A stretch of 43,377 bases of DNA from Bacteroidota bacterium. GTDB taxonomy: Bacteria > Bacteroidota > Bacteroidia > Chitinophagales > Chitinophagaceae. This document shows, one piece after another, positions 2,781 through 33,645 of this stretch. The position numbers and the translations under genes are program-made. The stretch is from positions 1 through 43,377 of the forward strand of contig JAUZOE010000037.1 in NCBI GenBank assembly GCA_030706605.1, read 5' to 3'. Position 1 is the first letter of the stretch. Every line of letters starts with the position of its first letter. The notes beneath the pieces were generated by a model. That model made no database searches. It was not told the DNA's origin and saw only the letters and a list, made by a program, of their open reading frames with translations.

Positions 2781-2916
2781 TTCTTAGCAATGTCTCTCCA
2801 ATGGAAACGCTACGTAAAATGCTCTTTTACTACCCGGATAACAACTAAATTTAATTGTTTACGAAAACCAGAAACTTAAACCAAATAAATAAATCTTTGT
2901 ACACGCAGGAAGACAG
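2781..2916. repeat. Palindrome-bearing repeat element, copy A
   Basis: This stretch lies between the divergent sulfatase and small membrane protein genes. One end (TTCTTAGCAATGTCTCTCC) and the other end (CTTTGTACACGC) match the two ends of the repeats at 32811-33008 and 33441-33645, but in the opposite orientation relative to the adjacent gene. It is about 60 bases shorter because the part between the first end and the central palindrome is missing. The palindrome at 2840-2859 is preserved. Confidence 0.7.
2840..2859. promoter_or_regulatory. 20-bp palindrome, putative operator (copy A)
   Basis: The sequence AACAACTAAATTTAATTGTT is symmetric except for one base pair. It is overlapped at 2857-2868 by a second dyad, GTTTAcgaAAAC, which has one mismatch. 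The same composite recurs at 32890-32909 and 33524-33543 while the flanks differ much more, as expected for a transcription-factor site. It lies about 90 bases before the sulfatase start and about 105 before the small protein start. The binding protein is unknown and no matching regulator gene is in the window. Confidence 0.6.
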
Positions 2917-2963
2917 AATATTAATTCTATCTTTAAAGAACACAAAGCCTTAAACAAATTAAA

Positions 2964-3161
2964 ATGAACAAAAGGAATAATAGCATTCTTTACTTAATTC
3001 TCGGATTATATTCGATAATGGTAAGCTGGTATTACAATCATTCAATTCTGTTAGTAATTATCCATTACATTTTCTGGCCCATTTATTTACTGTACGAATT
3101 ACTCAACGGCCGGCTGGCCCACAATATGTGGAAGATAATTCCTGAGTCTTATTTCAATTAA
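2964..3161 (+). CDS. Small two-helix membrane protein, unknown function
   Basis: A 65-residue protein made almost entirely of two hydrophobic segments (about residues 8-24 and 27-48) with a polar C-terminus ending in WKIIPESYFN. No known domain was recognised. The ATG follows an A-rich leader, and the frame has good codon use for its size. It is divergent from the sulfatase with the palindrome-bearing repeat between them, and its stop lies five bases from the convergent esterase stop. It could be a small envelope protein co-regulated with the glycan genes, but that rests only on position. Confidence 0.6.
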   Translation: MNKRNNSILYLILGLYSIMVSWYYNHSILLVIIHYIFWPIYLLYELLNGRLAHNMWKIIPESYFN

Positions 3162-3166
3162 ATTTA

Positions 3167-4300
3167 TTATTCGGCTTGCAGCCCAGGTATTAAAGTACTT
3201 AATATCTGCTGTGCATACCAACGAATCAAAAAATCATTGGGATGGTTAATATCATTCCCTGTCATATCCTGGTAAGATTTATATTTAAGCAGCTCCGCAT
3301 GTACGGAGGTCATATCCACCAGCACAATGCCCAGCCCTGTCAATTCATCCAATACTTTTTTGAAAAATTGCTGTGTTCCTACAAAATCAGATTCAGGATT
3401 AGGCAGCATAGTTGCCACTAATATAAATTCCGCTTTAGGATTATTCCGTCTTACTTTATTGATGATCCCATGAATATTCGCTTTAAACACCTGCGGATCC
3501 ATCCGGCCTGTGCCATCATTCATCCCAAAAGCGATGATAACAAGATCGGGATTATGAGCCACTACACCCTCCTCAGCAGTTGCTAACCCCCATTTGGAAT
3601 CCTTGCCTCCAACTGAGGTATTAGTAAATGCAATATCTCCTTTATAATATCTCCTTAAACCATCCGCAACCAGGTTTCCCCAACTGGGCAAATAAGGAGG
3701 GGCACCGGTTTCGCCGCTTGCATTGGAACCTGCAGCAATACTATCCCCAAAAAGCAATATTTTTAATACTGATCTTCTTTTTAGCTTATCCATTGCTTCA
3801 GGAAGATCGCCTCCCTGGAAGGGCGATATCGGACCTTTCCATAATTTAGCCGCATGGGTATAGGTAACTGCCAACTGGTGATTATGGAAAAATGATCCTT
3901 CCTTAAATAAGATAAATCCGCCACCCTTTTTCGGAAATGCATTCTTTAATGTATCAGGATAGAGTTGCGCCTTTGTTAGATAAGGAGCCTGCGAACCTTT
4001 CAACAACCTCAATAGTCCATTGTTATATTCCCAATCTACTCCCTCTTTGTAATCAATATTTAATGCAGAATTCCTGACAGAAAGAATTTTAACAGGGGTA
4101 AATAGCAGATGCGCTATAGGTAATTCTCCATTTCCTGAAACCATCAATACCGATTCATTGTACATGGTCGTAGTTTTCCAGAAAGGAATTAATGCAGTAT
4201 CGATCCTGTCATTTTCCTGGGCCATTAAATTCGTAGAGGAGCATAACATAATACAGCATGCCAGGGTTTTGATTGGCATAAGTTTGAATACATGTTTCAT
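3167..4300 (-). CDS. Exported SGNH/GDSL-family esterase
   Basis: A 377-residue protein with a signal peptide (1-28, ending LMAQ). An N-terminal beta-rich domain of about 170 residues precedes an SGNH hydrolase domain. Block I has the GDS motif with catalytic Ser187 (LLFGDSIAAG), block II the oxyanion Gly (SVGGKDS), block III FGMND with the oxyanion Asn, and block V the Asp-His pair near INHPND. Proteins of this layout remove acetyl or other acyl groups from plant or algal polysaccharides. It is followed on the same strand, upstream, by the GH43-like lipoprotein (102-base gap), so it is probably co-expressed with the glycan enzymes. The exact ester it cleaves cannot be told from sequence. Confidence 0.88.
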   Translation of the reverse strand: MKHVFKLMPIKTLACCIMLCSSTNLMAQENDRIDTALIPFWKTTTMYNESVLMVSGNGELPIAHLLFTPVKILSVRNSALNIDYKEGVDWEYNNGLLRLLKGSQAPYLTKAQLYPDTLKNAFPKKGGGFILFKEGSFFHNHQLAVTYTHAAKLWKGPISPFQGGDLPEAMDKLKRRSVLKILLFGDSIAAGSNASGETGAPPYLPSWGNLVADGLRRYYKGDIAFTNTSVGGKDSKWGLATAEEGVVAHNPDLVIIAFGMNDGTGRMDPQVFKANIHGIINKVRRNNPKAEFILVATMLPNPESDFVGTQQFFKKVLDELTGLGIVLVDMTSVHAELLKYKSYQDMTGNDINHPNDFLIRWYAQQILSTLIPGLQAE

Positions 4301-4402
4301 TTAGCAAAAGTTTTAAGAGCCTGTTTCGTACAGGCCAGCCGGATGATAAAAAAATACATTATAAGCAGATTACTTATTTTGACACCAAACAATTATCCCG
4401 TT

Positions 4403-6358
4403 TTACAATTCAATTTTAATGCAATCTACAGGCAAAGGCCCATCCAACGATTCAATGTATACTGCATGGCTCCCACTGGTAAGATCGCCGGATTTAAATA
4501 ATACAGACGATTTTATTTCCCGGGAACTTTTTAAAGATAAATTTTTAATTAATTTCCCGTCAAGATAAATATTTATAGTGCCATACATAGGTCCCCTGGG
4601 AGAGAAGAGTTCAAATCCTTTGCCATCAAAATTCCATTTCGCAAAACCTGAATCTCTTTTGGATACCGCTCCTTTGCCGTATAAAAACATAGTATCTTTT
4701 TTAAAGACCCAATCGCTATCCTGGTCACCGGCGGCCACCAGGGCTCTATAATATCCATAAGTAACCAATCCTTTCACTTCAGGTCCTTCTACCACAAACC
4801 GATCGGCAAATAAATAACTATGAGGATTTAATAATACCCCTACTACACCGGGATTACTTTTTAAGGCTCCTTCCCAACATTTTACATCATTTATAAAAAG
4901 CCTGTATTTCCCATCGATTTTTTTTATCTGAAGAGTATTCTCATTGGGGTTCCAGTTTGGTACATTACCCGAATCAACATGAACGATACTTTTCCCGCTA
5001 TCATATACATTCATCTTCCAATTGTTTTTATTAACTACAATTTCCTTATAATTCGCATCATCCTGGTCTAACTCAAACTTCCCCCAGCCGTTTAGTATAT
5101 CAAGAGGCGTATGAAAATCCCAAATAATATGCATGGTACCATCAAGTTTAAATTTTACGTCAATGTCTTTAACTTCTGTTGCCTTTTTAATATACGAAAA
5201 TGAATTTCCTTCATTAGCGGTAAGGTTAAAACCCCTGTCTCTGTATGGATGATCCCAGGAGGCTTTGGCAAGATTGATGGTACCATAATCTGTTTTGTCT
5301 TTGGATGGAAACATAACATATATTGAATCATTATCATCCACAAAGCCTGTAAAAGTTTGTCCCCATATCCCGGCATACTCATTTTCAACATTAGCGGAAT
5401 GCCACAAAGTTCCGGCACTGAAAATTTCATATTTATCAGCATTGGTTATGTCTTCTATCTTCACGCGGTAAACTGATTGATAGTTCCTGTTAACTGAAAC
5501 AGATGTTGCCGGAAAATAAACATATCCATCATGCGTAAACGCAGGAAAATATTCCTGGAGAGGCGGGTAGTTTGTTTTTCTTTCTACATTCAGCATTATT
5601 TTCGTATCGCCATAAGGTCCTTCAGGCTTTGAAGCAGTAGAGACAGCTAATGCCCAACTGCGGGCAGGAGCACTATCCATCATGTATATCAGCACCCAGT
5701 CATTTTTGCGTTTCACGATCATGGGGGCATACATTCTCCAGTACCTGTTCAACAAGGGCTTTTGCTTATACTGAGTATTGATTTTAACGGGTTTCTTTGA
5801 AACAACAAAAGGGCCTTCGGGCTTGTCGGCTACTGCGTAACCAAGACCCGACTGCCCGGCGTTCTGCCAATCGAAATTACCAGGTACCCAATCGAATACC
5901 ATGTGATATTTTCCATCGGCATAGGTTACCATAACATCAGGCACCTGGATCTTAATAGAATCATAACTAAGCATGTTTGCAGGAAACAAGTCGCCTATTT
6001 TATTCCACGTTTTTCCTCTATCGGATGATTTATAAATGACACAGTTGAAATCCGCCGTAGTGGTATCCTTATCTGATTTATAAAATTCTTTGTATTCACC
6101 GATATATAAATACCAGTTATGACTTACCGGATCAGAATATAAGAAACCATTCACCGGCCACTCCATTCCTTTACGACCTCTATACACCGGGTTGCCGGCA
6201 AAACGCCCGAAAGCATCCCATGTAGGACTTCCGAAAGCGTAATCGTGCGACCATTCATTCATGTTCGATTGCAAGGCATAATCATTTTTGTCTTTGACTA
6301 CCCTACAGGAATTAAAAAGGATAGAGAAAAAAATGATGGAGAAAAAAAAGCGGTTCAT
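4403..6358 (-). CDS. GH43-like five-bladed propeller lipoprotein
   Basis: A 651-residue lipoprotein (hydrophobic leader, lipobox at Cys18). Residues about 40-400 have the pattern of a five-bladed beta-propeller glycosidase: GNPVYRGRKGMEWPVNG near the start, QVPDVMVTYADGKYHM, repeated YGYA/GPF blade-edge motifs (DKPEGPFV, SKPEGPYG) and WRMYAPMIVKRKNDW. The C-terminal third reads as beta-sandwich, with a possible concanavalin-type domain (WNPNENTLQIKKIDGKYRLFIND) and a last beta domain. The fold is that of GH43 and related furanosidases or xylosidases, but the catalytic acids were not securely placed, so a divergent or non-catalytic role is possible. It sits in the minus-strand run with the esterase and glycosidases. 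Confidence 0.7.
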   Translation of the reverse strand: MNRFFFSIIFFSILFNSCRVVKDKNDYALQSNMNEWSHDYAFGSPTWDAFGRFAGNPVYRGRKGMEWPVNGFLYSDPVSHNWYLYIGEYKEFYKSDKDTTTADFNCVIYKSSDRGKTWNKIGDLFPANMLSYDSIKIQVPDVMVTYADGKYHMVFDWVPGNFDWQNAGQSGLGYAVADKPEGPFVVSKKPVKINTQYKQKPLLNRYWRMYAPMIVKRKNDWVLIYMMDSAPARSWALAVSTASKPEGPYGDTKIMLNVERKTNYPPLQEYFPAFTHDGYVYFPATSVSVNRNYQSVYRVKIEDITNADKYEIFSAGTLWHSANVENEYAGIWGQTFTGFVDDNDSIYVMFPSKDKTDYGTINLAKASWDHPYRDRGFNLTANEGNSFSYIKKATEVKDIDVKFKLDGTMHIIWDFHTPLDILNGWGKFELDQDDANYKEIVVNKNNWKMNVYDSGKSIVHVDSGNVPNWNPNENTLQIKKIDGKYRLFINDVKCWEGALKSNPGVVGVLLNPHSYLFADRFVVEGPEVKGLVTYGYYRALVAAGDQDSDWVFKKDTMFLYGKGAVSKRDSGFAKWNFDGKGFELFSPRGPMYGTINIYLDGKLIKNLSLKSSREIKSSVLFKSGDLTSGSHAVYIESLDGPLPVDCIKIEL

Positions 6359-6726
6359 GATTTCAAATTTGTTTTAGAAATTCCCTTTATTAATTTCCGA
6401 TTGCAGCCTCAGCACTTTCATTATCGCCCCTTCATGGTCTTCGTTTGCAATCAGGACTAAATCTATACTTTTAATATTTTGCATAACATGAGTGGAGACA
6501 AATTTTTAATCAGTGATAAATCAGGAGGTTACTTCTCACAGGCGGAGATGTAGCAAAGATAAAGAGGCGTTGTCGTATCTGTGTCAATGAAGCTTTTAGA
6601 AATTATAAGGTTGTGCACTTTAATTGCGTGATGTACTTTCAAGGCACAAATACCCAGCCGCCCTGTATTGCAAGAATGAAGTATATGCCATGAGTAGGAA
6701 CTTCCTGTGCCAACCAAAAGATTTAA
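6359..6726. other. Gene-free spacer with repeat remnants
   Basis: No gene is supported in these 368 bases. They hold a weak REP-like copy at 6439-6462 (TTTGCAATCAGGACTAA) and, at 6614-6659, a segment resembling 12026-12070. A 62-codon minus-strand frame here covers the repeat and shows no protein-like features. The spacing suggests that the six-hairpin gene and the propeller gene may have separate promoters. Confidence 0.5.
6614..6659. repeat. Dispersed repeat, copy 1 (pairs with 12026-12070)
   Basis: Both copies contain ATTGCGT, then a variable stretch, then GCACA(A/G)ATACCCAGCC in the same order and spacing, giving about 45 aligned bases with roughly three quarters identical by eye. Neither lies in a gene. 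The copies bracket the two glycosidase genes at 6.7-11.8 kb, both on the plus strand. Confidence 0.5.
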
Positions 6727-8574
6727 TCACAAGGTTTCGAGATAACCAGGTATAGATAACATTGGAAGATAATTATCGACTAAAAATCCTTCGTAACCCC
6801 AACATTCTCCCTTCCAGTTTTTCCAGTCTTTGGTCATATTGTTATTTGAACAATATCCATCAAATCCACCTTCATTATAGCTTTCCATCAAGGCTAAAAA
6901 AATCTCATTGGCTTCTTTTTCCATTTTTAATTTGTAAAGCGCCTGTATAGTAAAGTAAACATAACAACCTGAAGCACCTCCATTCTCATACACCTGGAAG
7001 TTTTGATATCCCCAACGCGTATTTCTATCTGTATAATCTTTATCTGCAATGGGAATGAGATTACCAGGCAGTCCCAATTTGAAATTTGTAAAGCCAACTT
7101 CTTTCATCTTATCTAATAAACGTAGCATAATACTTTTTGCCTCAGGATCTTCAATCAGCCCATAAGATATGGCAACGCCATTAACAAAGGTGAAGTAGTA
7201 ATCATGTAATTCTCCATCTGCGCTCCTCCATCCTCCAAGCACACCGGTATCCGGATTAAAGAATCTTGAAAAATAATTACTTTTAAGTTTCTTAGCAAAA
7301 GCCTCATAGTTATGGCTATCCCCGAGGTTATTTAAAATTGCTGCAACTTGTGACAACAAAGTACAAGCCCGGTAGGCTAATGCGTTAGAATATGCATCAT
7401 CATGTCCAAAACCAATCGTATCCCACCAGTTGGCAGGTCGCTTAAAATCTTTAATCCAACTATCTGAATTTCCTGAATAACCGTATTCAATAATACCATC
7501 ATTATTGGTATCAGTGGCCATCATTTTTGATGCCCAGGCTGCGATTCCCTGGTAATTTTTATTGGCCCATTCCAAATCCTTTGTATCAATAATATAATAA
7601 CAAGCGGCCATAATTAAAGAAGGAAAACTATCCGAGGAATTATAAGCACTTTGCCAACTAATTTTTCCATCCTTTCCATACCCCACCATACCATATCCCA
7701 ACATACCATTCAAATATTGATCAAGCGTATTTCTGATTAGATCCATGGCAGAAAGCCCTTCAGCAAGAGGAGGCGTCTTCCTTGCCATTTCAGCATACAT
7801 AAAAAAGGTGAACGCGCATGCATCACTTGTAGAATTATTTGCTAATGTCCTGAAACGAGGGTTAAGCTGAAAAATATTTATATAATTCTTTTTAAATCCA
7901 TTAAAAGTGTTGTCATTCTTAACTTTATTTATGTCAGGGAATATGGTTACGGATTCAAACCTATAAGTTATATCCTGGTGATTAGAATCGGCTGCAGCTA
8001 AACCAATTTTGATATAAGGTTTTTTGGTTAGTTCTGCATCATAAAAAAGAGTAATCCCTGGATCATTACAATATATCCGAAAAGTACCCATCCCAGGTAA
8101 ATGCAATACACATGGAAAATTAATTTGTTTATCTGACCGCAGGTTACCCAATACTGTACAATGATTTATTTTTTGAGAAAAAATGATTTCAAAAGGAGAA
8201 ACCTTTAATCCGTTTTTCCACCGTGTTTGAATTATGAAACTCTTATCGTGCATTTTACATTCCCAAACCGGAACGTGTTTCTTTTTTGTTTTCAGAAAGT
8301 AAGCAATACTTTTCGATCTTACCCTGCTCTCATATTGTCCTTCAGAGTTCTCTACATTTTTGAATAAGGGATTTACCGAAAATTGCTTAAACCCTAAACT
8401 ATCCGTAGAAAAAAAAGAAAATTCCGGCCTGTCTCTTCGCAACTGCATTTTCAAATAGGAGGACTCAAAAGAGAAATCCTTGCCATCATCTGCCAGGAAT
8501 GAAAACTGCCCGGGTATCCCTACAGCAATTGCCCCAAAAGCAGATTGTTGGATAAAAGTGCGACGAGTTGCCAT
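6727..8574 (-). CDS. Six-hairpin (alpha/alpha barrel) glycosidase-like protein with Tat-type leader
   Basis: A 615-residue exported protein. Its N-terminus (RRTFIQQSAFGAIAVG) is a twin-arginine-like signal, suggesting export of a folded protein. Residues of about 30-230 form a beta-rich domain. From about 250 on there are helical hairpin repeats with the aromatic and acidic patches of (alpha/alpha)6 glycosidases: DTNNDGIIEYGYSGNSDSW, RPANWWDTIGFGHDDAYSNA, FNPDTGVLGGWRSADGELHD and WGYQNFQVYENGG. This fold covers GH15, GH63, GH78, GH127 and similar families; the family was not fixed. The neighbouring GH106 rhamnosidase makes a role in trimming the same glycan plausible. Confidence 0.75.
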   Translation of the reverse strand: MATRRTFIQQSAFGAIAVGIPGQFSFLADDGKDFSFESSYLKMQLRRDRPEFSFFSTDSLGFKQFSVNPLFKNVENSEGQYESRVRSKSIAYFLKTKKKHVPVWECKMHDKSFIIQTRWKNGLKVSPFEIIFSQKINHCTVLGNLRSDKQINFPCVLHLPGMGTFRIYCNDPGITLFYDAELTKKPYIKIGLAAADSNHQDITYRFESVTIFPDINKVKNDNTFNGFKKNYINIFQLNPRFRTLANNSTSDACAFTFFMYAEMARKTPPLAEGLSAMDLIRNTLDQYLNGMLGYGMVGYGKDGKISWQSAYNSSDSFPSLIMAACYYIIDTKDLEWANKNYQGIAAWASKMMATDTNNDGIIEYGYSGNSDSWIKDFKRPANWWDTIGFGHDDAYSNALAYRACTLLSQVAAILNNLGDSHNYEAFAKKLKSNYFSRFFNPDTGVLGGWRSADGELHDYYFTFVNGVAISYGLIEDPEAKSIMLRLLDKMKEVGFTNFKLGLPGNLIPIADKDYTDRNTRWGYQNFQVYENGGASGCYVYFTIQALYKLKMEKEANEIFLALMESYNEGGFDGYCSNNNMTKDWKNWKGECWGYEGFLVDNYLPMLSIPGYLETL

Positions 8575-8736
8575 AAATTTTTGTTTAATTATGCTGGTCT
8601 TAAATATTATTTTCTATAAAATTATTCCAATTTCAATTCTCCTTCAGTTTCCCAATAACACACATACTTAACAATTTTTCAACGCATTATTGAAAGCTCC
8701 CGGCATCAAAAATCAGACTTGTAGTTTACACTACAT

Positions 8737-11781: not shown

Positions 11782-12195
11782 TTTAATTTAATTAAACATT
11801 ACTATTTTCAATTTGACAAAAATTTACTGTTGGTCTTAAATGCAACCTTAAGCAATCAAGCCCTTTTACGCGAGGTCCGCTTGTGCTGTTGATAAGAAGA
11901 AATTTGTAAATTCACTCATAATAAAACCGGCTGATTGTAAATATAGTAAATATAGTAGTGCATAGAATTGTTGCGAAAAGGAGGGATTAGTTGATTTATT
12001 TATAGTTAGTAATTGGTCACCAGCGGACACATTGATTGCGTAGGGTATTCAATAGCACAGATACCCAGCCACACAAAAGCTATGCTGCATATCTGCAAGT
12101 GGGGGGGGGGAATGAATGCAGGATTCGGAGCAGATGGCTTTCATTCACAATTGATATCCCCACTGGCAAGCAGGCCCAAAAACTGAAATTGAACC
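11782..12195. other. Upstream region of the GH106 gene, repeat-rich
   Basis: No gene is supported. The stretch must hold the GH106 promoter (read leftward), though no clear TAnnTTTG box was found. It includes a dispersed repeat copy at 12026-12070, a run of ten G at 12101-12110 and, from about 12140, sequence homologous to the leader of the FMN reductase copy at 14616-14673. An 81-codon plus-strand frame (12036-12281) crosses all of these and is not credible. Confidence 0.5.
12026..12070. repeat. Dispersed repeat, copy 2 (pairs with 6614-6659)
   Basis: It shares ATTGCGT and GCACAGATACCCAGCC with the copy at 6614-6659. It lies just before the homopolymer G tract and the truncated FMN reductase fragment, in a stretch that appears to have been assembled from several repeats. 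Confidence 0.5.
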
Positions 12196-12363
12196 ATGAA
12201 ACAAAAGAAAAATATATTAGTGATCATCGGGAGCGCCAGTCAGCATTCGGCAAATCAACAACTGATGGACCGTTTTACTGACCTGGTAAAAGACGAATTT
12301 AATCTGAGAATGTTCAATGACTTAAAAACGCTTCCTCATTTTGACCCCGAATTATCAATTCAA
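12140..12363 (+). repeat. Long direct repeat, left copy (FMN reductase leader plus 5' end)
   Basis: About 224 bases align in the same orientation with 14616-14839. The leader shows GTCCCAAAAAC/GGCCCAAAAAC and AATTG before ATGAAA, and the coding part is close to 90 percent identical by eye. Homology stops abruptly just after the codons for ELSI. The two copies flank the BlaI-M56 operon. Confidence 0.7.
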
Positions 12364-12366
12364 TAA
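12196..12366 (+). pseudogene. Truncated NADPH-dependent FMN reductase fragment
   Basis: The 56-codon frame starts MKQKKNILVIIGSASQHSAN, the flavin-binding beta-alpha start of the NADPH-dependent FMN reductase (flavodoxin-like) family, and ends right after HFDPELSIQ. An intact member is about 180 residues, so roughly two thirds are missing. It is paralogous to the frameshifted copy at 14674-15221. No continuation was found in the 600 bases downstream. It is presumably non-functional. Confidence 0.8.
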
Positions 12367-14061: not shown

Positions 14062-14066
14062 ATCTA

Positions 14067-14444: not shown

Positions 14445-14468
14445 TGCTCTATGTTTTTAAATGTAACT

Positions 14469-14615: not shown

Positions 14616-14839
14616 TTCATACATATTGAAACCTTTAGCACGGGCGTGCCAGTCCCAAAAACAGCAATTGCACATGAAAGAAAAGAAAAATATACTGGTG
14701 ATTATCGGGAGCGCCAGTCAACATTCGGCAAACCAACAACTGGAGGACCGTTTTGCTGACCTCGTAAAAGACGACTTTAACCTAACCGTGTTTAATGACT
14801 TAAAAACACTTCCTCATTTTGACCCCGAATTATCAATCC
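14616..14839 (+). repeat. Long direct repeat, right copy
   Basis: Partner of 12140-12363, in the same orientation. The homology covers about 55 bases of leader and the first 55 or so codons of the FMN reductase gene. Recombination between the copies would delete or duplicate the BlaI-M56 operon between them. Confidence 0.7.
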
Positions 14840-15221
14840 ACTATCTGCCTGCATCAATTGTAGCCTTTAGGAACTAATCAGCAAAGCAGACGGAATTGTA
14901 ATTTGCACGCCCGAATATGTGTTTAGTATTCCCAGCGGACTCAAAAACGCAATTGAATGGTGCGTTGCCACAACCGTATTTTCAGATAAACCCGTTAGGC
15001 TTTTGACGGCTTCGGCAAGCGGGCAAAAAGGGCATGAAGAATTGCAATTGATAATGAAAACGATAATGACACGGTTTACCATGGAGACCACTTTACTGAT
15101 ACCCGGAATTAAAGGAAAAATAAATACGCAGGGCGAAATCACCGATGCTAAAACGATGGCCGGCTTAATAAAATTTACCGATGCCTTTAAAACTCTGGTA
15201 CATGATGCGGATGGAACTTAG
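14674..15221 (+). pseudogene. NADPH-dependent FMN reductase, single frameshift
   Basis: The first frame gives MKEKKNILVIIGSASQHSAN to VAFRN and stops at 14875-14877. The frame one base back resumes at GAA (14871) and encodes ELISKADGIVICTPEYVFS, IPSGLKNAIEWCVATTVFS and KTLVHDADGT to a TAA at 15219. Joined, they make a flavodoxin-like NADPH-dependent FMN reductase of normal length (about 180 residues) with the PEYVFSIPSGLKNAIEW flavin-site motif. The junction reads AG GAA where AGG GAA would restore the frame, so loss of one G is the simplest explanation. A read error is possible. The truncated paralogue is at 12196. Confidence 0.85.
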
Positions 15222-22001: not shown

Positions 22002-22037
22002 CTGTTCCTGGGGGTGAATTTTCTTCGTTTCCTTCCT

Positions 22038-22072: not shown

Positions 22073-22087
22073 GAATAGGCTCCTCCA

Positions 22088-22780: not shown

Positions 22781-22827
22781 TTTCTCATTCCTAATTTAAT
22801 ATTTTTGTTTATTTCTAATTTCCTCCA

Positions 22828-25372: not shown

Positions 25373-25787
25373 TGGTCAATACCCTTCATATAGATATCTA
25401 ACAGCCATGCTTTAAGATGTTCAAATTATCATTTCATATCAAGCAGCCATAATCGTTTGCTTCAGAGAGCCACGGAGAAACAAAGCCCTGGGAAATAAAC
25501 ATTACAGTTTTAAGCGGTGAAATTATTTTACCCCAGTTCAATGTGTCAATAATAAATATAAAAGCTATTATAACTCTTTACAGATCATCGATAAGAATTC
25601 TTTTTATACTTTACACAGAAGTATTAACAACGCTATGTTTCAATGTACATTTATTTTTGTGATATATTTAAGAGTAGCCTCCCGTGTTATCTTCAATAAA
25701 TAAATACTTTTAAAGCACCGTACTAATGCTACCTTAAAACGATTGACTGCCTAAACCATAATTGGTTGGTACAAAATTTTATTGTTT
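25373..25787. other. Intergenic region before the OMP_b-brl gene
   Basis: There is no gene in this 415-base gap. TATTTTTG at 25652-25659 fits the -7 consensus and would give a leader of about 120 bases for the OMP gene. No REP-like or palindromic element stood out. Confidence 0.4.
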
Positions 25788-28556
25788 ATGAGAAAACTAA
25801 TACTCTTCCTGGTTGGTGCTATTTTATCAATTTCTTCTTTTGCACAATTAGTTAACGTATCTGGCAGTGTGAAAGATCGTAATGAAAATAAACCGGTACA
25901 AAATGCCGTGATAGCATTGCTGACTCCAACAGATTCTATTCTCTATAAATTTACACGCACAGATGCCGGAGGAAAATTTATTATGAAAAATGTAACTCCG
26001 GGCAAGTATATTTTAATGACCACACAGCCCTACTTCGCCGATATGCTGGATAATATTGATGTGAAAAAAACTATCCAGCTTCCTCCAATAAACCTTCTTT
26101 CAAAAAGCGAATTATTGCAGGAAGTAATAGTAAAATCCGGAACTCCTTACCGCATTAAAGGCGATACTACTGTTTATACTGCTGATAGTTTTAAAGTAAG
26201 CGCAAATGCGAACGTTGGAGAATTATTGAAAAAATTACCGGGAATACAGGTTGATAAAGACGGGAAAATAACTGCCATGGGAGAAACCGTACAGAAAGTA
26301 TTGGTAGATGGTGAAGAGTTTTTTGGTGATGACCCTGGTATGGCGGTTAAAAATTTAAGGGCCGATGCCGTAAAAGAAGTGCAGGTGTTTGATAAAAAAA
26401 GTGACCAGGCAGAGTTTACCGGAATAGATGATGGTAAAACGCAAAAGACTATCAACCTCAAATTAAAAGAAAATGCCAAACATGGTTACTTCGGAAAAGC
26501 AGATATATCGGGAGGGACAAAGCAAAATAATGAAAACCGTTATAATGATAACCTGATGTTCAGCTCTTTCAGGGGAAAAAGAAAATTCTCTGGATTTTTA
26601 TTAAATGGAAATACAGGAGAGAATCGCCTCAACTGGCAGGATGAACAAAAATATGGAGGTAGCGATTATAGTGCGAACCTAGATGATAATGGAGATATAA
26701 GTTTTCAATCGAACGGGTCAAACGATGATGAACCCCGTGTAGATCCTCAAAATGGATTTATGACCAATGTAAATGGCGGGCTGTTATACAGCAATAAATG
26801 GAATGATAAATATGATTTCAACCTTGCTCCTAAATATACCAGCGAACAGTATACCAATCAAAAACAAACCCTTTCACAAACACAAGTGGGAGATTCGGTA
26901 CTCAATCAAAACTCAACAGAAACAGACAATGTGAACAGGCATTATTTTAAAATAAGAGGCATATGGGACTTGAAACTTGATTCCATGAATTCCTTAAAGA
27001 TTCTTTCCAATACTAATTTTTATCATACCGAAAGCGGGAGTGTTATTAACTCTGTAAGTACCGGCAATACAGGCACCTTAAAAAATACAAGTACCAGGGA
27101 TCTGCAAACCGCTAATGATAAAAATGCCGTATCTGGTAATCTTATTTTCAGGCATAAATTTCATAAAAGCAGGAGAACATTAACTTTTTCGGGAAACTGG
27201 GATTTTTTAAATAACCAGGGAACCAATTTTTTAAAGTCAGATAACCAGGCCTATTTTGATGGCACTCCGGCAAGCAGCCAGAACCTCAACCAAATGAAAG
27301 ACTATAATACTTTCACTAAAAATTTATCGGCTCAAATAGTGTACACAGAACCGTTATCAAAGGAGTATTCATGGGAATTAGGCTATCAACTTGCTTATAA
27401 TTACGGCACTAATAATCAGCTTACTTATAACTATACTCCTTCTTCCAACAAATATGATGGATTGGTAGATTCTTTATCTAACCAGTTTAAACAAAATATT
27501 CTTCAGAATATACCTTCAACAAGAATCAATTTTGCCAATAAGAAATGGAAAATAAATGTCGGATCCGGCTTTGGTTTTACCAATTTCGATTTAAAAGACA
27601 TCACTTTTAATAAGGATTATACCAGGAACTATGTCAATTTCTATCCTTCATCAAACATTACTTATACTTATAAACCCAACCATAGTATCAGGTTTAATTA
27701 TACAGGTAACACTACACAACCTACCATTAACCAGTTGCAGCCTTTACGAAATAATAATGATTATTTTAATCAATATATTGGCAACCCCGATTTAAAACCC
27801 TCTTTTACCAATTCAGTCCGTGTATCGCACAACAGCTATAATTTCTTAAATCAACTTTTTGTATATCAATCTTTATATGTAAGTGTTACCAGCAATGCAA
27901 TCACAACCAACCGTATCATTAATGTTGATTCAGGAAAAACAACCAGCCAGCCTGTAAATACCAATGGAAATATTTCAATCAATTTATATGGTGGCATGGG
28001 TTTTAAAATCAAAAAAATTGATACAAGGATCAATTTTTATCCACAGTTATCCTATAACAAATATGCTGACATCATCAATAGCCAAAAAAGCATTTCAAAA
28101 ACAGTGAGCCCGGGTGTTTATTTTGGAATATCCAAATCAAAAGAAAAGAAATATGATCTTTCCATTGGTGATAATTTTAATTATAATGCTAATACCACTT
28201 CTCAAAACGGTACCAAAATTCATTACAACACCAATACGCTCAGTATAAATGCAACATTGTATATTAAAAAAGTATGGTCATTGATTTCTGACCTGCAAAT
28301 GTATTCCAGGCAGAAAACCCCTCAATTTACTTCTAACCTGAACTCCACTCAATGGGGAGCAAGAATACAGCGCACTTTTAAAAATGATGAGTTTACGACT
28401 TATTTTTCTGTTCATGATATTTTGAATCAAAATGTGGGTATTGACAGAAATTTTAGCAGTAATACTTATACGCAGATAACCAACAACAGGCTAAAGAGGT
28501 ATTTTTCAATTGGCTTTGAATGGGATTTTAAAAACAAAGCATCAAAAGCAAAATAA
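25788..28556 (+). CDS. OMP_b-brl-family outer-membrane protein with carboxypeptidase-like N-domain
   Basis: A 922-residue outer-membrane protein. The ATG at 25788 starts a clean signal peptide (MRKLILFLVGAILSISSFAQ), so the TTG six bases earlier is not used. Residues about 22-105 form a carboxypeptidase-regulatory-like domain (VSGSVKDRNENKPVQNAVI). A plug-like domain follows (YRIKGDTTVYTADSF; LLKKLPGIQVDKDGKITAMG; VLVDGEEFFGDDPGMA), then a long barrel. This is the TonB-receptor-related OMP_beta-brl type, not a SusC. The GLPGLI gene starts 19 bases after it, a frequent pairing. It likely takes up or exports an unknown ligand. Confidence 0.9.
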   Translation: MRKLILFLVGAILSISSFAQLVNVSGSVKDRNENKPVQNAVIALLTPTDSILYKFTRTDAGGKFIMKNVTPGKYILMTTQPYFADMLDNIDVKKTIQLPPINLLSKSELLQEVIVKSGTPYRIKGDTTVYTADSFKVSANANVGELLKKLPGIQVDKDGKITAMGETVQKVLVDGEEFFGDDPGMAVKNLRADAVKEVQVFDKKSDQAEFTGIDDGKTQKTINLKLKENAKHGYFGKADISGGTKQNNENRYNDNLMFSSFRGKRKFSGFLLNGNTGENRLNWQDEQKYGGSDYSANLDDNGDISFQSNGSNDDEPRVDPQNGFMTNVNGGLLYSNKWNDKYDFNLAPKYTSEQYTNQKQTLSQTQVGDSVLNQNSTETDNVNRHYFKIRGIWDLKLDSMNSLKILSNTNFYHTESGSVINSVSTGNTGTLKNTSTRDLQTANDKNAVSGNLIFRHKFHKSRRTLTFSGNWDFLNNQGTNFLKSDNQAYFDGTPASSQNLNQMKDYNTFTKNLSAQIVYTEPLSKEYSWELGYQLAYNYGTNNQLTYNYTPSSNKYDGLVDSLSNQFKQNILQNIPSTRINFANKKWKINVGSGFGFTNFDLKDITFNKDYTRNYVNFYPSSNITYTYKPNHSIRFNYTGNTTQPTINQLQPLRNNNDYFNQYIGNPDLKPSFTNSVRVSHNSYNFLNQLFVYQSLYVSVTSNAITTNRIINVDSGKTTSQPVNTNGNISINLYGGMGFKIKKIDTRINFYPQLSYNKYADIINSQKSISKTVSPGVYFGISKSKEKKYDLSIGDNFNYNANTTSQNGTKIHYNTNTLSINATLYIKKVWSLISDLQMYSRQKTPQFTSNLNSTQWGARIQRTFKNDEFTTYFSVHDILNQNVGIDRNFSSNTYTQITNNRLKRYFSIGFEWDFKNKASKAK

Positions 28557-28575
28557 AATTTTAAAAACAGTAGCC

Positions 28576-29346
28576 ATGAAAATCAGAGTTTATTTTTTAG
28601 CAATTGTATTATTATCATTTGTTACAGCACATGCGCAAAAATTTATCAGTAAAGCAGTAATTGAATACGAAGTAAAGGCCAACGTAAAAAAAACAATGGG
28701 CAGTGGTATGTTTGAAGATATGTTGAAAGATCAAATGCCCACATTTAAAACAGGATATTACAATTTTACTTTTGCGAATAATAAAAGCATTTACCAATTT
28801 GATCACTGGGATGAAGAATCAAAAAAAATTCCACAGTACTGGAGAAAAAGTGAGGAAGAAAATGTTTGGTACTGCAACTATAGCAATGGTACATTAGACA
28901 TGCAAAAAAATATAGGTGGCACTAATATAAATATTGAAGATTCTATTCCGAAGATGCAATGGAAGATTACCAATGAGAACAGGGTAATAGCAGGCTTTAA
29001 CTGCAGGAAAGCAGTTGCCATTATATTTGACAGCGTATATGTTTTTGCTTTTTACACGGATGAAATAGTAGTTCCGGGAGGACCTTGTTCTATACAGGGA
29101 TTGCCTGGAATGACATTGGGTGTAACGATCCCCCGGTTATATACCTCATGGATCGCTACAAAAGTGATGCTCAATGGGGTAGATGAAAGCACCATCAAAC
29201 CGGTCTCTGCCAAAAAGCATTATGATTTGAAATATCTGGAAGCAACCATCAGGGATAGCTATAAAGATTGGTATAGTGACGATCCAACTAGGAATAAAGA
29301 AATCCTGGAACAAAAGGATAGATCTTTATGGCAGTATTTATTGTAG
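28576..29346 (+). CDS. GLPGLI-family exported protein
   Basis: A 256-residue protein starting at the ATG at 28576, which gives a proper signal peptide (MKIRVYFLAIVLLSFVTAHAQ); an earlier in-frame start would overlap the upstream gene and hide this signal. It carries the family's name-giving motif as GLPGMTLG, preceded by a YTDEIVVPGGP stretch, and an ENRVIAGFNCRKA segment typical of the family. The family is Bacteroidota-specific and of unknown function, usually paired with an outer-membrane receptor-like protein, as here (19-base gap). Confidence 0.9.
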   Translation: MKIRVYFLAIVLLSFVTAHAQKFISKAVIEYEVKANVKKTMGSGMFEDMLKDQMPTFKTGYYNFTFANNKSIYQFDHWDEESKKIPQYWRKSEEENVWYCNYSNGTLDMQKNIGGTNINIEDSIPKMQWKITNENRVIAGFNCRKAVAIIFDSVYVFAFYTDEIVVPGGPCSIQGLPGMTLGVTIPRLYTSWIATKVMLNGVDESTIKPVSAKKHYDLKYLEATIRDSYKDWYSDDPTRNKEILEQKDRSLWQYLL

Positions 29347-29550
29347 ATCAAAAGGTATATTCCATTGATGTAGCTGCAATAGTCATTTCTGTTTAAGCGA
29401 TACCCTTTAAATTAACAGTAAGTTATACAAAGTGAGTTTGATTCTATTGCATTTTTTCCCTGATATTTTTTACTTTGCGATGGATATTTTTTATGGATTA
29501 TCGATTGTAATTGGTAAAGAGAATTGTTATTATCAATCAATTATGTTTTT

Positions 29551-30462
29551 ATGAAGGGCGTTTTCACTGACCAGGTAGCCATGCTTTTTAGCACTCCCAT
29601 TACCTTAACTTTGGTATTGCTCGAGATCTTTATCAGTGTAAGATATGATAAACAATATTACAATGTAAAAGACACTAAAGCCAACCTCTTACTGGGTTTG
29701 GGTTATATGATTACTGATACTTTGAGCCGCGGTGCAGGTTTGTTTTTATTAGCAGTATTTTACTTTTATGGATTACACCTTTTTTCTTTTATTTCAGGGC
29801 ACCTAGTTTTTTACTGGATTTTATTGGTATTGGCAGAAGATTTTACTTACTGGTTTATGCACCTTATGGACCACCGGATCAGGTTCTTATGGGCAGGACA
29901 TATTCACCATCATTCATCAAAAGAGTTTAATTTTTCTGTAGGCCTCCGGTCAGCCGTATTTGAACCCATAGAAAAGTTTTTCTTTTTTATTCCATTAGCT
30001 TTTATCGGCTTCCGGCCATTGGATATCGTGTTAATTTATGTGCTGTCGCAAGGCTGGGGCACTTTTGTACATACAAAAGCTATAAAGAAACTCGGCCCTC
30101 TTGAATATATTTTTACCACGCCTTCTCACCACCGTGTACATCACGGGGTTAACATAAAATACCTTGACAAAAATTATGGCATGTTTCTTATTATCTGGGA
30201 TAAACTTTTTGGAACCTTCAGGGCCGAAGATCCCGCAGAACCGGTAGAGTATGGCGTCTTAAAAAATGTAGCCTATAAAAATTATTGGGATATCATATTC
30301 AATGAATATAGGCAAATCGTAAATGATTCCAAACAAAACATTTCTTTCAAAGAAAAGCTGAAATATATATTTGGCCCCCCGGGCTATAGCCATGACGGAA
30401 GTCGCAAAACAACCCGTGAATTGCAAATGGAAGAAATCCCTGGTAAGAATAATGAAAATTGA
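29551..30462 (+). CDS. Sterol desaturase/fatty-acid hydroxylase-family membrane protein
   Basis: A 303-residue membrane protein from the ATG at 29551 (a TTG 27 bases earlier is less likely). It has four or so membrane segments and the three histidine clusters of the di-iron hydroxylase family: HLMDH, GHIHHHSS and HHRVHHG. Such enzymes insert oxygen into lipids such as fatty acids, sterols or carotenoids. The C-terminal portion ends in a charged tail (KTTRELQMEEIPGKNNEN). It is alone on its strand; the substrate is unknown. Confidence 0.88.
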   Translation: MKGVFTDQVAMLFSTPITLTLVLLEIFISVRYDKQYYNVKDTKANLLLGLGYMITDTLSRGAGLFLLAVFYFYGLHLFSFISGHLVFYWILLVLAEDFTYWFMHLMDHRIRFLWAGHIHHHSSKEFNFSVGLRSAVFEPIEKFFFFIPLAFIGFRPLDIVLIYVLSQGWGTFVHTKAIKKLGPLEYIFTTPSHHRVHHGVNIKYLDKNYGMFLIIWDKLFGTFRAEDPAEPVEYGVLKNVAYKNYWDIIFNEYRQIVNDSKQNISFKEKLKYIFGPPGYSHDGSRKTTRELQMEEIPGKNNEN

Positions 30463-30574
30463 CTGGTAAATGGCTGGCTACAAAACTATGAGCAAAAGTA
30501 CCAGTCAATATCAATAAATGCCTTTACAGTGTTGTAAATTTTTAAGCCCCTCCCAAGACGGCCTCTGATTCCCT

Positions 30575-30940
30575 TTACTTATCGGTATCTCTCACCAAAG
30601 TCTCATGCACTATCTCTCCGCTTCCAAAATCAATATCCACGCCACAAGAATCTTCATAGAATTTTCCTGTATGCGGGTAAGGGTTACCATCTACCGTAAC
30701 AGAAAAAGAGAATTTATCGCCGGAAACTTTACCATCATCGATGGAGACTGCTCCCCTTGGAGATTCAGCGGTACCGGTCAGTACATTACCATCCACTTTA
30801 AAATTATATACCGCTTCTACCTGGTCACCATTGGGAGTAGTAAAGTCTCCCTTCCATTTACCATCAAGTGAGGCAGCTATTGCCATTACGAACAGGAAGC
30901 AAGTGCATATAGCACCAATAAATATCAACTTTCTTTTCAT
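30575..30940 (-). CDS. Small exported lipocalin-like beta protein
   Basis: A 121-residue protein with a signal peptide (1-23, ending AIAAS). The mature part LDGKWKGDFTTPNGDQ, LTGTAESPRGAVSIDDGKVSG and DKFSFSVTVDG is a regular run of beta-strands with GKW...GT repeats, as in small lipocalin-like or calycin folds. Similar short proteins occur widely in Bacteroidota, sometimes labelled after glycosidase-associated domains; there are no catalytic residues to call. It is convergent with the hydroxylase. Confidence 0.75.
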   Translation of the reverse strand: MKRKLIFIGAICTCFLFVMAIAASLDGKWKGDFTTPNGDQVEAVYNFKVDGNVLTGTAESPRGAVSIDDGKVSGDKFSFSVTVDGNPYPHTGKFYEDSCGVDIDFGSGEIVHETLVRDTDK

Positions 30941-31134
30941 GTGAAATTATTTTTTTTGTAATCTACATTAAATTTAAAAATAAAACAAGCATGAGCATCA
31001 AACAAATATTTCAATGACCTCCACACAGGTTTCCTTTGATAATAAGAAATTACAGGATAAAGAGATGACGGGATTATTTTATATTAAAATATTACACCTT
31101 ATCTTATCAACTTCTTCCTTTAGAGACTAATTTT

Positions 31135-32781
31135 TTAGAACCTTAATACCATGCCACTATTGACCAGTTTCTTTTGCAACTCTGCATAACTAATATCCTG
31201 CACCTTCTTCTTTTGTCTTACTGCAAAGGCAGCCGCAATCCCTGAAGATTGACCCAGCATCATAAATACCGGTTCCATCCGAATGGAGCCGTAGGCCACG
31301 TGGGATGCTGACAGACATACGGGTACCAGTAAATTGCTGCATTCATTTCGTTTGGGAACAATGGCCCGGTAGGAAATTCCATAAGGGGGTTTTACCCCTA
31401 TCTCAACGTCTCCCTCATCCTGCACATCGCCATCCGGTGTTACATATCTTTGAACATTATGGCTGTCCATATTATAATTGCCCATAGCTATGGATTCAGG
31501 TACCGCCTTATCTCCCTTTAAATAATTTTCGCTCATCACAAAATCGCTCACCATGCGCCTGGCTTCCCTGACGTACAACTTATACGGCATATGGCCATTG
31601 TCTTTAAATTCATCTTTGTGCAATCCCCATGAAGCATATTTTTTCCTCACCTCAGCAGGTATCCCCGGATCGTGCTGCACAGTCCATATTAATCCTTTTG
31701 TCCAATAGGCATGTTCTTCATCCATTTTTCTCCTGAGGGCATAAGAAGCTTCAGGATAGGAGTAATCCATACCTATATAATCTGTGGAAACACCACCATC
31801 ATTATTGGAGTCTGTTTTGCGATTAGGTAATGGAGAGAGTTTCCAAAATGTTTGTACACCCTTTTGCGCAGCCCTTACAATCAATTCAAAATCTCTTTTT
31901 TGATAGTTGGCAGGCTTTGCCACCATTATCCTGTTCGCGGGCACATCGGTAAGGCATACCCTGTAACAATAGGCCTGTATCTTTTTATCGCCCTCGCCGT
32001 CTTTGCCTCCTGCATCCCTACGTATGCCAGGCAAAAGCCCGCTTGAAGGATCTCCCTTTTGTACATAAGGGTCTATGCCGCGGGGCAGGTTATTTTTTGT
32101 TGCCAATGCAGTTTCTATTCCATTGATCGTTTCATCGTATTGGCTGTTGGCTTCCCTGCCTGTAGTATAAGATACCCCCGCAGCAGCCATCAGGTCACCT
32201 TCATAGGTGGCATCTATGAATACTTTGCCCCTGTAAGTGTTACCATTTAACATGGTGATGGATACTATATTACCATTTATTTTTTTAACGCCATGCTTTC
32301 GGTCCAGCCATTGATCTGTTTTCAATGGTATTTTATTTTCTGTAATCAGATCGTTAAAAACCTTTTCCGCGGCATGTGGTTCAAAAGTCCACATCATGCT
32401 ATCGGTAATTTTGTAAATAGAATTGCCTGCTTTTTCCTGGTAGTCTGCAAAAGCTTCTTCTTTCCAGGTATAGGCATTTTGATAATGGTTCCTTATCCTG
32501 TGAAAAAAATCAAGGGTAAGCCCGCCGATCGTTTTGTGGCGATCCTGGTTTCCTATGTCTGTCCAGCCCAACCCGCTGGTAGTAAGGCCGCCAACATGTT
32601 TTTCCGGGCTCAGCAACATTACGGATGCGCCGTTTTGTTTGGCCGCCACTGCTGCGATTACTCCCGCTGAGGTAGCTCCATAAATGACCACGTCGTAACT
32701 ATTATCAACGCTTTGTGCCTGTGCGGGATGATTTATAAAAAGCAAAAAGAATAGAATATTACGTATACTGTTTTTTTTCAT
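31135..32781 (-). CDS. Secreted FAD-dependent oxidoreductase
   Basis: A 548-residue protein from the ATG at 32781; 20 earlier codons in frame would mask the signal peptide (MKKNSIRNILFFLLFINHPA, then QAQ). The FAD-binding Rossmann segment is YDVVIYGATSAGVIAA (29-44), followed by VGGLTTSGLGWTD and later FIDATYEGDLMAAAGV and LVPVCLSASHVAYGSIRMEP, as in the FAD_oxidored (PF12831) family common in polysaccharide loci. The reaction is unknown; oxidation of a sugar or uronide is plausible. A palindrome-bearing repeat copy precedes it, and a cytochrome c gene lies upstream on the same strand, a possible electron acceptor. Confidence 0.88.
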   Translation of the reverse strand: MKKNSIRNILFFLLFINHPAQAQSVDNSYDVVIYGATSAGVIAAVAAKQNGASVMLLSPEKHVGGLTTSGLGWTDIGNQDRHKTIGGLTLDFFHRIRNHYQNAYTWKEEAFADYQEKAGNSIYKITDSMMWTFEPHAAEKVFNDLITENKIPLKTDQWLDRKHGVKKINGNIVSITMLNGNTYRGKVFIDATYEGDLMAAAGVSYTTGREANSQYDETINGIETALATKNNLPRGIDPYVQKGDPSSGLLPGIRRDAGGKDGEGDKKIQAYCYRVCLTDVPANRIMVAKPANYQKRDFELIVRAAQKGVQTFWKLSPLPNRKTDSNNDGGVSTDYIGMDYSYPEASYALRRKMDEEHAYWTKGLIWTVQHDPGIPAEVRKKYASWGLHKDEFKDNGHMPYKLYVREARRMVSDFVMSENYLKGDKAVPESIAMGNYNMDSHNVQRYVTPDGDVQDEGDVEIGVKPPYGISYRAIVPKRNECSNLLVPVCLSASHVAYGSIRMEPVFMMLGQSSGIAAAFAVRQKKKVQDISYAELQKKLVNSGMVLRF

Positions 32782-32810
32782 ACCTGGTATTTGTGATTGA
32801 GTATTTACCT

Positions 32811-33008
32811 TTCTTTTTAGCAATATCTCCCGATATGCCACGTTGCGTGTACAAGATTTATTGATTGGTTTATGTTGCCGGTTTACATAAACAATTAAAT
32901 TTAGTTGTTAATCTGTAACCAACAAAAAACAATAATTCCTATTTTATTTTAGCCGGTTAGTGAAGGAGAATTTTATGCAATGTCTCCGTTGGGAAAGATA
33001 GCTAAGAA
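32811..33008. repeat. Palindrome-bearing repeat element, copy B
   Basis: It fills the gap between the FAD oxidoreductase and the cytochrome c genes. It is nearly collinear with copy C (33441-33645). Its ends are inverted repeats of each other: TAGCAATATCTCCCGATATG at one end and, on the other strand, TAGCTATCTTTCCCAACGGA at the other. The centre has GTTTACATAAAC (32881-32892) overlapping the palindrome at 32890-32909. Confidence 0.75.
32890..32909. promoter_or_regulatory. 20-bp palindrome, putative operator (copy B)
   Basis: AACAATTAAATTTAGTTGTT is the same as the site in copy C and the reverse complement of the site in copy A. It lies about 110 bases before the FAD oxidoreductase start. Confidence 0.6.
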
Positions 33009-33013
33009 AAAAA

Positions 33014-33430
33014 TTATTTTTTCAGAGACAGGATGTAGGTAACTATCAATTTTGCATCTTCAAATGAAAGTTGGGGATGAGGTACCATTACCGGGTAACC
33101 CCAACTTCGGCTTCCTCCGCTGATTACTTTTTGAGCAAGCTTCTTAATATAAGTTTTGTTGACAGGGTATCTTTTTGCTATATCTTTAAAAGCCGGCCCC
33201 ACCGATTTTTCGTCTTTTTTATGACAGGTATAACAATCTGAATAAGCAATCAGGACTTCACCCTTTTCGGGAACGCCGGCAGGTATGGTATCATTTATGC
33301 CTGGTATTTGTTTTATATAATCAATCGTTTTCCGGGTATTCTTTTCCTCAGGCTTACTATTGCAACAAAGCAGGTATAATGTGGCAAACAATAAGTAAAC
33401 GATTAAAAGAGGTTTTTTCTTTCTAAACAT
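33014..33430 (-). CDS. Lipoprotein c-type cytochrome (class I)
   Basis: A 138-residue protein with a hydrophobic leader and cysteines at 22-23 that suit a lipobox (LYLLCCNS). Haem is attached at CYTCH (66-70), and the likely distal ligand is Met in GYPVMVPHP. The pattern CxxCH, then VGPAFKDIAKRY and a GSRSWG loop, fits the small cytochrome c551/552 group. It would carry electrons at the outer face of the inner membrane or in the periplasm. It is the neighbour of the FAD oxidoreductase, and each gene has its own copy of the palindrome-bearing repeat. Confidence 0.9.
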   Translation of the reverse strand: MFRKKKPLLIVYLLFATLYLLCCNSKPEEKNTRKTIDYIKQIPGINDTIPAGVPEKGEVLIAYSDCYTCHKKDEKSVGPAFKDIAKRYPVNKTYIKKLAQKVISGGSRSWGYPVMVPHPQLSFEDAKLIVTYILSLKK

Positions 33431-33440
33431 ATGAGTAATA

Positions 33441-33645
33441 TTTCTTTTTCATGGCAATGTCGCCCGATAGGGAAATTTGCGTGTACAAGTTTTATTGATT
33501 GGTTTAACTTGTCGGTTTATGTAAACAATTAAATTTAGTTGTTAATCTGTAACCAACAAAAAACGATCATTCCTGCTTTATTTTAACCGCCTGGCAAATG
33601 AGAATTTTATGCAATGCCTCCTTTGGGAGAAATGGCTAAGAAATA
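33441..33645. repeat. Palindrome-bearing repeat element, copy C
   Basis: Its best end pair is GGCAATGTCGCCCGATAGGG at the cytochrome side and, on the other strand, AGCCATTTCTCCCAAAGGAG at the far side, so it has imperfect terminal inverted repeats of about 35 bases. Small hairpins (CCCgataGGG; CTCCtttGGGAG) lie in each end. The centre (about 33521-33564) matches copy B over more than 40 bases with no differences. Confidence 0.75.
33524..33543. promoter_or_regulatory. 20-bp palindrome, putative operator (copy C)
   Basis: AACAATTAAATTTAGTTGTT, identical to copy B, overlapped by the dyad GTTTAtgTAAAC at 33515-33526. It lies about 95 bases before the cytochrome c start. Confidence 0.6.

Follow-up and report, generated by a model that had tools for sequence, protein, structure and literature searches.

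Long REPIN-like miniature elements, probably RAYT-linked, in a draft Chitinophagaceae genome

Three copies of a short element, designated A, B, and C, lie in a 43,377-nucleotide contig of a Bacteroidota bacterium from the family Chitinophagaceae (GenBank JAUZOE010000037.1, assembly GCA_030706605.1). The contig, C31 in our numbering, is entirely covered by the stretch analyzed here (the window), and the host draft genome comprises 4.27 Mb in 71 contigs. We consider it highly probable that the copies are fossil, non-autonomous miniature elements linked to REP-associated tyrosine transposases (RAYTs; REP, repetitive extragenic palindrome). They would be long forms of the REPIN (REP doublet forming a hairpin) or of the MITE (miniature inverted-repeat transposable element), mobilized in trans by a RAYT. 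The ends of the copies are structured elements of the same kind as the hairpins found on either side of such RAYT genes. The copies lie scattered, mostly between genes, and have sharp boundaries, and near-identical hairpin-bounded units occupy different places in sister genomes.

Hairpin ends of the elements and of RAYT genes

Copies B and C each have a REP-like hairpin at either end, the two inverted with a center of about 120 bp between them, while A keeps one hairpin (Table 1). Each hairpin has an 8-bp stem, a 3-bp upper stem, a short loop, a bulged A, and a tail resembling TRAGAA. An earlier note, made from the sequence alone, had placed three copies within a few bases of these positions and described inverted-repeat ends; both observations are borne out, the inverted repeats being hairpins that face opposite ways. 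Its statement that the copies share both ends and the center is right for B and C. It does not extend to A, which lacks the left hairpin and some 41 bases of the center, retains the core and right end, and is therefore a deleted copy. B and C are 84% identical by BLAST (query positions 1-203), or 81% across 215 nt without gaps. They are spaced 634 bp apart in direct orientation, and their similarity drops directly outside both ends, to 30-40% in the first 20 bases and 15-30% farther out. The elements contain no open reading frame (ORF) of 100 amino acids, and an Rfam scan of the window gave no match above the gathering score.

The link to RAYT genes comes from R1, a sequence-only model built on six copies. 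On contig C4 of genome G016, from the same genus, R1 has two matches in opposite orientations around a single ORF, which matches NCBIfam model NF047646 (REP-associated tyrosine transposase) at 63 bits and has no Pfam hit. The inverted hairpins flanking this gene are identical at 39 of 39 bases. A second intact RAYT gene, on contig C85 of G006, encodes a protein 68% identical to the first and has ends of the same kind; around both genes, as in the long elements, the hairpin tails point outward. The two genes lie at L095:5660-6217 on the minus strand (G016) and at L133:1460-2015 on the plus strand (G006). RAYTs in G016 and G006 thus provide the transposase with matching ends that the earlier note had proposed to look for. 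Scores of the partner proteins against NF047646 (61.2, 65.9, and 63.6 bits; E 1e-16 to 4e-18) fall under its curated cut-off of 80, and by this measure the proteins are classed as relatives, below the equivalog cut-off. The G016 protein has an NHVH motif whose second His is 82 residues from the Tyr, a Trp followed by Glu, and the motif YMHDNP; across these proteins the Tyr motif reads YMHDNP or YLHNNP. A PDB search with the RAYT found no credible relative.

Related RAYTs, 46-65% identical, are flanked by hairpins with other stems (GCAACGTC/GACGTTGC, GCCGAGTC/GACTCGGC, GCATCGTC/GACGATGC, and TGCGAGTC/GACTCGCA) that retain the GTC...GAC core together with the bulged A (a T in one case); at RAYT loci such as L165, L167, L173, and L174 the hairpin core or loop differs. 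A first flank-hairpin test took in 33 loci, 12 of them without an ORF bearing the requested motif and one at a contig edge; the flanks matched above shuffles in 14 of the 20 tested. In a second test of 53 rows, five lay at edges and 33 of the remaining 48 exceeded their own shuffles, where rows L199 and L201 duplicate L162 and L182 and the hairpin matched at L197 is not inverted. At locus L169 (869-2289; G011 C130), GCATCGTC-type hairpins form arrays, five on each side of a RAYT gene, every tail outward.

An alignment designated A5 combines 13 RAYT-flank hairpins with eight element ends over 39 columns, one of them a gap column in the loop. Under the proposed structure 90.9% of its cells are paired, compared with 37-44% when the structure is slid, and its covariation score is 0.445 against 0.175 in shuffles (0 of 500 reach it); both figures are raised by the way the RAYT hairpins were selected, in a scan for which pairing was a requirement (143 of 143 cells paired). 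The eight element ends alone, which were not selected for pairing, have 68 of 88 cells paired, compared with 34-40 when slid. A first alignment of ends, A4, gave three pairs only with RNAalifold; A5 differs in using exact registers and fewer ends. To avoid circularity, a pair-and-position scorer was trained on the 13 RAYT-flank hairpins only and scanned along both strands of the window. The five element ends rank 1, 3, 7, 8, and 9, and the left end of C tops the list at 20.4, where the best of 30 shuffled windows reached 18.4.

Dispersed copies, apparently mobile units, and neighboring genes

The profile search of the genome and its relatives that the earlier note had suggested found seven own-genome copies with R1 at E<=4e-10, three on C31 and two each on contigs C18 and C19. 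Four of these had been used to build R1; the two C19 copies and C18:50529-50688 are new. A further, eighth copy at C18:50101-50248 scores weakly with model R3 (E 5.8e-4) but is readable, and weak R1 matches on C35 (E 0.003) and C28 (E 0.006) were left unclassified. Past the left end of a C18 copy (L004, 1640-1890) lie about 700 bp without a long ORF but with a terminator-like palindrome, possibly a small RNA.

Among 20 genomes of the genus, 16 have some R1 match at E<=0.1, but a threshold of E<=1e-5 is passed only in the own genome and in the sister species G018 and G006. G016, at 5.7e-5, is matched in the RAYT flank. The copies on G018 C120 and G006 C33 represent one shared locus upstream of a histidine kinase gene. 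The G018 copy at this locus (L093, about 3890-3970) has a GC-rich insert of about 75 bp within the element, missing in the G006 copy. Searched with copy C, 149 relatives yielded three genomes with matches: the own genome, G018 (a real copy), and G143 (within a long ORF). Model R3 matched, among 147 genomes of the family, the own genome and three weak candidates (E 4e-4 to 7e-4, with about 0.15 matches expected at E<=0.001); G018 and G006 are absent from the R3 matches, and possibly were not in the sample of 147 drawn.

Shorter forms occur as well. In the own genome, 20 hairpins match model R2 at E<=0.05, of which six had been used to build it. The matches include three inverted doublets whose hairpins are two bases apart (C1:11223/11263, C1:29323/29363, and C24:48083/48123). 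Such a doublet is about 78 bp long with its tails outward, and the doublet at L203 folds well beyond shuffles (z -4.9). At three own-genome places (L087 near 9846, L203 near 1001, and L206 near 1366) an end resembling that of an insertion sequence (IS), TGTCTYGTCCTRAAATARGTTTACAC, lies beside or inside REP hairpins, as if an IS with this end preferred them. On contig C70 of the host, two adjacent RAYT genes (L182/L201) have identical GTTGTTGGCGTCCCCGCCAACAA ends and hairpins unlike those of the elements; these ends represent a second REP family in the host.

Evidence for movement of hairpin-bounded units comes from two related genomes. G016 contains two 284-bp elements, 95% identical, whose edges fall within a few bases of the hairpin tails and whose flanks are unrelated; the pair carries a remnant of RAYT residues 2-56. 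G053 has three RAYT copies that are 96.8-98.6% identical; their left edges coincide with the tail, and the 40 bases preceding it are unrelated. Weaker similarity appears farther out: L161 and L197 agree at 76% over 115 bp, and there are REP-bearing pieces of L198. On the right side the likeness of L161 and L198 continues for about another 140 bp.

Table 1. Elements, their parts, and neighboring genes in the window.
Feature	Start	End	Strand	Remarks
Sulfatase gene	1288	2751	-	neighbor of A, outside the element; start 2751
Copy A, partial	2779	2907	-	left part of center, core, and right hairpin; ends 27 bp from sulfatase start
Right-end hairpin of A	2779	2817	-
Core palindrome of A	2840	2859	.	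AACAACTAAATTTAATTGTT
FAD-dependent oxidoreductase gene	31135	32781	-	neighbor of B; ATG at 32781
Copy B	32812	33010	+	two-ended
Left-end hairpin of B	32812	32850	-	tail outward
Left part of B center	32851	32896	+	weak likeness to G016 RAYT leader and first codons, at equal hairpin distance
Core palindrome of B	32890	32909	.	AACAATTAAATTTAGTTGTT
Right-end hairpin of B	32973	33010	+	tail outward; 3 bp from cytochrome c stop codon
Cytochrome c gene	33014	33430	-	between B and C; start 33430
Copy C	33446	33644	+	two-ended
Left-end hairpin of C	33446	33484	-	top window site for the scorer trained on RAYT hairpins only
Core palindrome of C	33524	33543	.	AACAATTAAATTTAGTTGTT
Right-end hairpin of C	33607	33644	+
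Peptidyl-prolyl isomerase gene	33738	34184	+	beyond C

The neighbors named in the earlier note are correct: A, B, and C lie 27, 30, and 15 bp upstream of the starts of the sulfatase, FAD oxidoreductase, and cytochrome c genes. A is indeed inverted relative to its gene, facing the sulfatase with its other end. If the oxidoreductase ORF were taken to start at a GTG (32841), it would be longer and would overlap B. At its far end, C is 93 bp upstream of the peptidyl-prolyl isomerase gene. In the own genome, A, B, C, and one C18 copy (C18a) are 15-111 bp upstream of gene starts, and copies C18b and C19b overlap gene 3' ends; in G006 the C60 copy stands between converging genes. Of the further copies, one adjoins a peptidase gene and an IS-like end, and others are upstream of histidine kinases. 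The association with glycan or redox genes drawn in the earlier note is therefore a feature of the window and not of the family, and, given the overlaps with 3' ends, the family taken together does not form a set of promoters. Elsewhere in the window, positions 12195-12365 and 14673-14843 form a 171-nt direct repeat, 88% identical; judged by eye, it comprises two copies of a small-protein gene start that flank genes for a BlaI-like repressor and an M56 peptidase.

The conserved center and competing explanations

The center contains a 20-bp palindrome, AACAAYTAAATTTARTTGTT. With up to three mismatches allowed, the window has three sites where 0.06 are expected. The genome has four sites without mismatch, and its 11 sites at up to three mismatches equal the 11 for a reversed control, so that only the perfect sites stand out. 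The 124 columns shared by A, B, C, and C18a include 51 identical ones, and a single run of 19 identical columns, a length reached by 0 of 20000 shuffles, spans most of the palindrome. The palindrome is altered in the G018 C120 and G006 C33 copies, so the comparison suggests constraint on the core in this host only. An exact search of a contig collection, from which records of the own or very near genomes were possibly excluded, returned 18 stretches, three of them from Bacteroidota (Muribaculaceae, Aequorivita, Flavobacteriales); the matches are taken as chance.

The left part of the center hints that the element may have begun as a RAYT unit that lost its interior, as in the pair from G016. 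The R1 match in the G016 unit extends beyond the hairpin (model positions 6-103). In A, B, and C, the 46 bases internal to the left hairpin align with the G016 RAYT leader and first codons (ATGCCGGTTCAGCAAACAATT), as do the last 30 of these bases in G018 C120. In A, B, and C the distance to the hairpin is the same as in G016, and the match ends within the palindrome. Summed over six copies, the match is reached by 32 of 5000 shuffles and by 2 of 1674 control windows. The right half of the element showed no clear resemblance to RAYT 3' ends, its summed score being equaled in 27, 101, and 51 of 200 shuffles. A control comparison of the right half with the G006 5' end was reached by 5 of 200 shuffles, so p-values of a few percent are not trustworthy alone.

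The account that we consider highly probable joins these observations as follows. The copies, decayed elements of about 200 bp each once bounded by two inverted REP-like hairpins with tails outward, would have been recognized at their hairpins and moved in trans by a RAYT, a Y1 HUH transposase, of a Bacteroidetes-type subfamily. Movement would have proceeded by cutting one strand at the foot of the hairpin and would have left target sites unduplicated, in the manner of IS200/IS605 transposases. The left center might be a relic of RAYT leader and first codons, and the palindrome may have been retained for regulatory use.

A number of results weigh against RAYT-mediated mobilization or against parts of it. 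Fourteen of 500 shuffles reach the seven of 11 A5 pairs changed on both sides, and three A4 ends (the left ends of C18a, G018 C120, and G006 C33) together with most half-copy ends were excluded from A5 for poor fit to the architecture. For the scorer trained on RAYT hairpins, the four other window ends score 9.0-11.5, within what shuffled windows reach at their best, and the sites ranked 2, 4, 5, and 6 are not element ends. A sequence-only profile (nhmmer) of the same 13 hairpins places two ends first, yet at E of 0.11 and 0.31. The hairpin foot lacks the GT[AG]G tag, reading TTCTCA, TTCCCA, or TTCTTA instead, and several copies retain the right half only. Whole strands of B (z -0.81) and C (z +0.16) fold no better than shuffles, which fits decay. 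R1 found nothing in 30 other RAYT loci. The relic match is seen in four of six copies and with G016 only: C18a and G006 C33 fail to align, and the G006 and G053 RAYT starts gave no signal. No clean empty site was obtained among the relatives compared; G009 and G012 share about 190 bases of the histidine kinase upstream region and lack the element, with different next genes, and the G016 FAD oxidoreductase (77% identical) lacks it too, with different neighbors. In the own genome no intact cognate RAYT was found, and the remnants closest to this RAYT protein, on C51 and C32, have different 3' ends. With some hairpin pairing lost and only RAYT remnants of the subfamily found, the family looks extinct in this genome.

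Compatible with RAYT-mediated mobilization, and somewhat unlikely in our judgment, is a course in which the mobile element came first and the promoter later: insertions would have brought a regulatory site that selection retained here. The signs of mobility, the constrained core, and the positions near start codons agree with it, but the apparent constraint on the core is drawn from at most three independent copy lineages. That the copies spread a regulatory site, which the earlier note raised as a possibility, is unproven, though the central palindrome is strikingly conserved in this genome.

A separate regulatory hypothesis holds that the copies are a promoter or operator module of a small regulon: a divergent region with hairpin 5' leaders and an operator of 20 bp, which promoter duplication would have multiplied. 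This would account for a palindrome that is perfect in all four own-genome copies keeping left half and core, in spite of the low overall identity, and for the placement of these same copies shortly before gene starts. It would not account for element ends that match RAYT hairpins, for copies at gene 3' ends or between converging genes, or for the degraded palindrome in G018 and G006 and the lack of any further perfect site in the genome. We judge it improbable; a divergent-promoter regulon was dropped as the leading explanation because right-half copies lie at gene 3' ends and the ends match RAYT hairpins.

A classical MITE derived from a DDE transposon with terminal inverted repeats would share the size, the lack of a 100-residue ORF, the inverted ends, and the intergenic sites, but the ends observed are self-complementary hairpins common to RAYT genes. 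The check for target-site duplications proposed in the earlier note found none beyond shuffles at 11 elements; the longest shared word, 5 nt at B, is reached by 39% of shuffles. Y1 transposition is not expected to produce such duplications. A DDE origin is accordingly very improbable, and the MITE-like element of the earlier note is supported as to mobility (more copies, sharp edges, a RAYT with matching ends), with a mechanism that differs from that of an ordinary MITE. Local segmental duplication, which the earlier note had named as the outcome that would defeat a mobile element if no further copies existed, is suggested by the closeness and direct orientation of B and C but is next to impossible, given that the B and C flanks fall at once to 15-40% identity on both sides and that five of the seven clear copies are 30 kb away or on other contigs.

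Relation to known repeat families

REPINs are known mostly from Proteobacteria. IS200/IS605 elements have a Y1 HUH transposase and hairpins near their ends (subterminal) and leave no target-site duplication, points in which the elements described here are alike; unlike in IS200/IS605, one hairpin is inverted with respect to the other. Background on that family is given in PMC6006769. No description of the present element was found in the open-access literature searched.

TIRtrons, or TIRYT, treated in a 2013 paper on GTAG- and CGTC-tagged palindromic DNA repeats (PMC3733652), have terminal inverted repeats (TIRs) with the motif GGGGWSAS. They resemble the units here in that longer inverted repeats lie on both sides of a tyrosine transposase and make up small families; here, in a comparison by architecture, the repeats are hairpins of a common design. 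The MITEs ERIC, NEMIS, and RUP, named in the same source, are alike in length (70-300 bp), inverted ends, non-coding content, and position next to genes; the elements here differ in that their ends are REP-like hairpins of a Y1 transposase and no target-site duplication was seen.

A close counterpart of the partner RAYTs is TnpAREP subclass 2.6, which Quentin et al. (2018, PMC6006769) describe as mostly from Bacteroidetes, with atypical non-GT[AG]G flanking hairpins that have copies elsewhere in the genome, motifs NH[LIV]H, WQ, and YIH[QN]NP, and about 82 residues from HuH to Tyr. Compared by motif, the partner RAYTs are possible members: they agree with this description in NHVH, a Tyr 82 residues on, SS in the C-terminal part, and non-GTAG flank hairpins that recur in the genome, and they differ in WE for WQ and in Y[ML]H[DN]NP. 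A Bacteroidetes-type RAYT family with non-GTAG hairpins, whose stems vary by lineage while pairing is kept, offers natural pairs for testing how a RAYT chooses its REPs. Units that seemingly move whole, found in one family with long REPIN-like forms, bear on the question of RAYT domestication. We regard as rather unlikely the broader proposition that Bacteroidetes-type RAYTs are not purely domesticated, that their hairpin-bounded units, full or internally deleted, transpose, and that one deletion lineage spread a working operator before catabolic genes of its host. If the conserved core does bind a regulator, an operator would here have been spread by a REPIN-like element.

REPINs themselves, together with bacterial interspersed mosaic elements (BIMEs), are the nearest known kind of element. 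They are inverted REP doublets (Bertels and Rainey 2011, PMC3116915), and they share with the present elements the inverted pair of palindromic REPs, the intergenic location, the linkage to a RAYT with the same flank hairpins, and the occurrence of single or decayed units as remnants. The present elements differ in being about 200 bp long (the short doublets here being about 78 bp), in a center conserved in sequence, in low copy number, in having no GTAG tag, and in that old copies no longer fold as a single hairpin. On features read from sequence, we class the present elements as long REPIN-like, RAYT-linked miniature elements, which have the REPIN doublet and the RAYT link but neither the GTAG tag nor the fold of the whole unit, and which exceed REPINs in length. 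They are mobile elements of a largely known kind, with a center that is unusually long and partly constrained.

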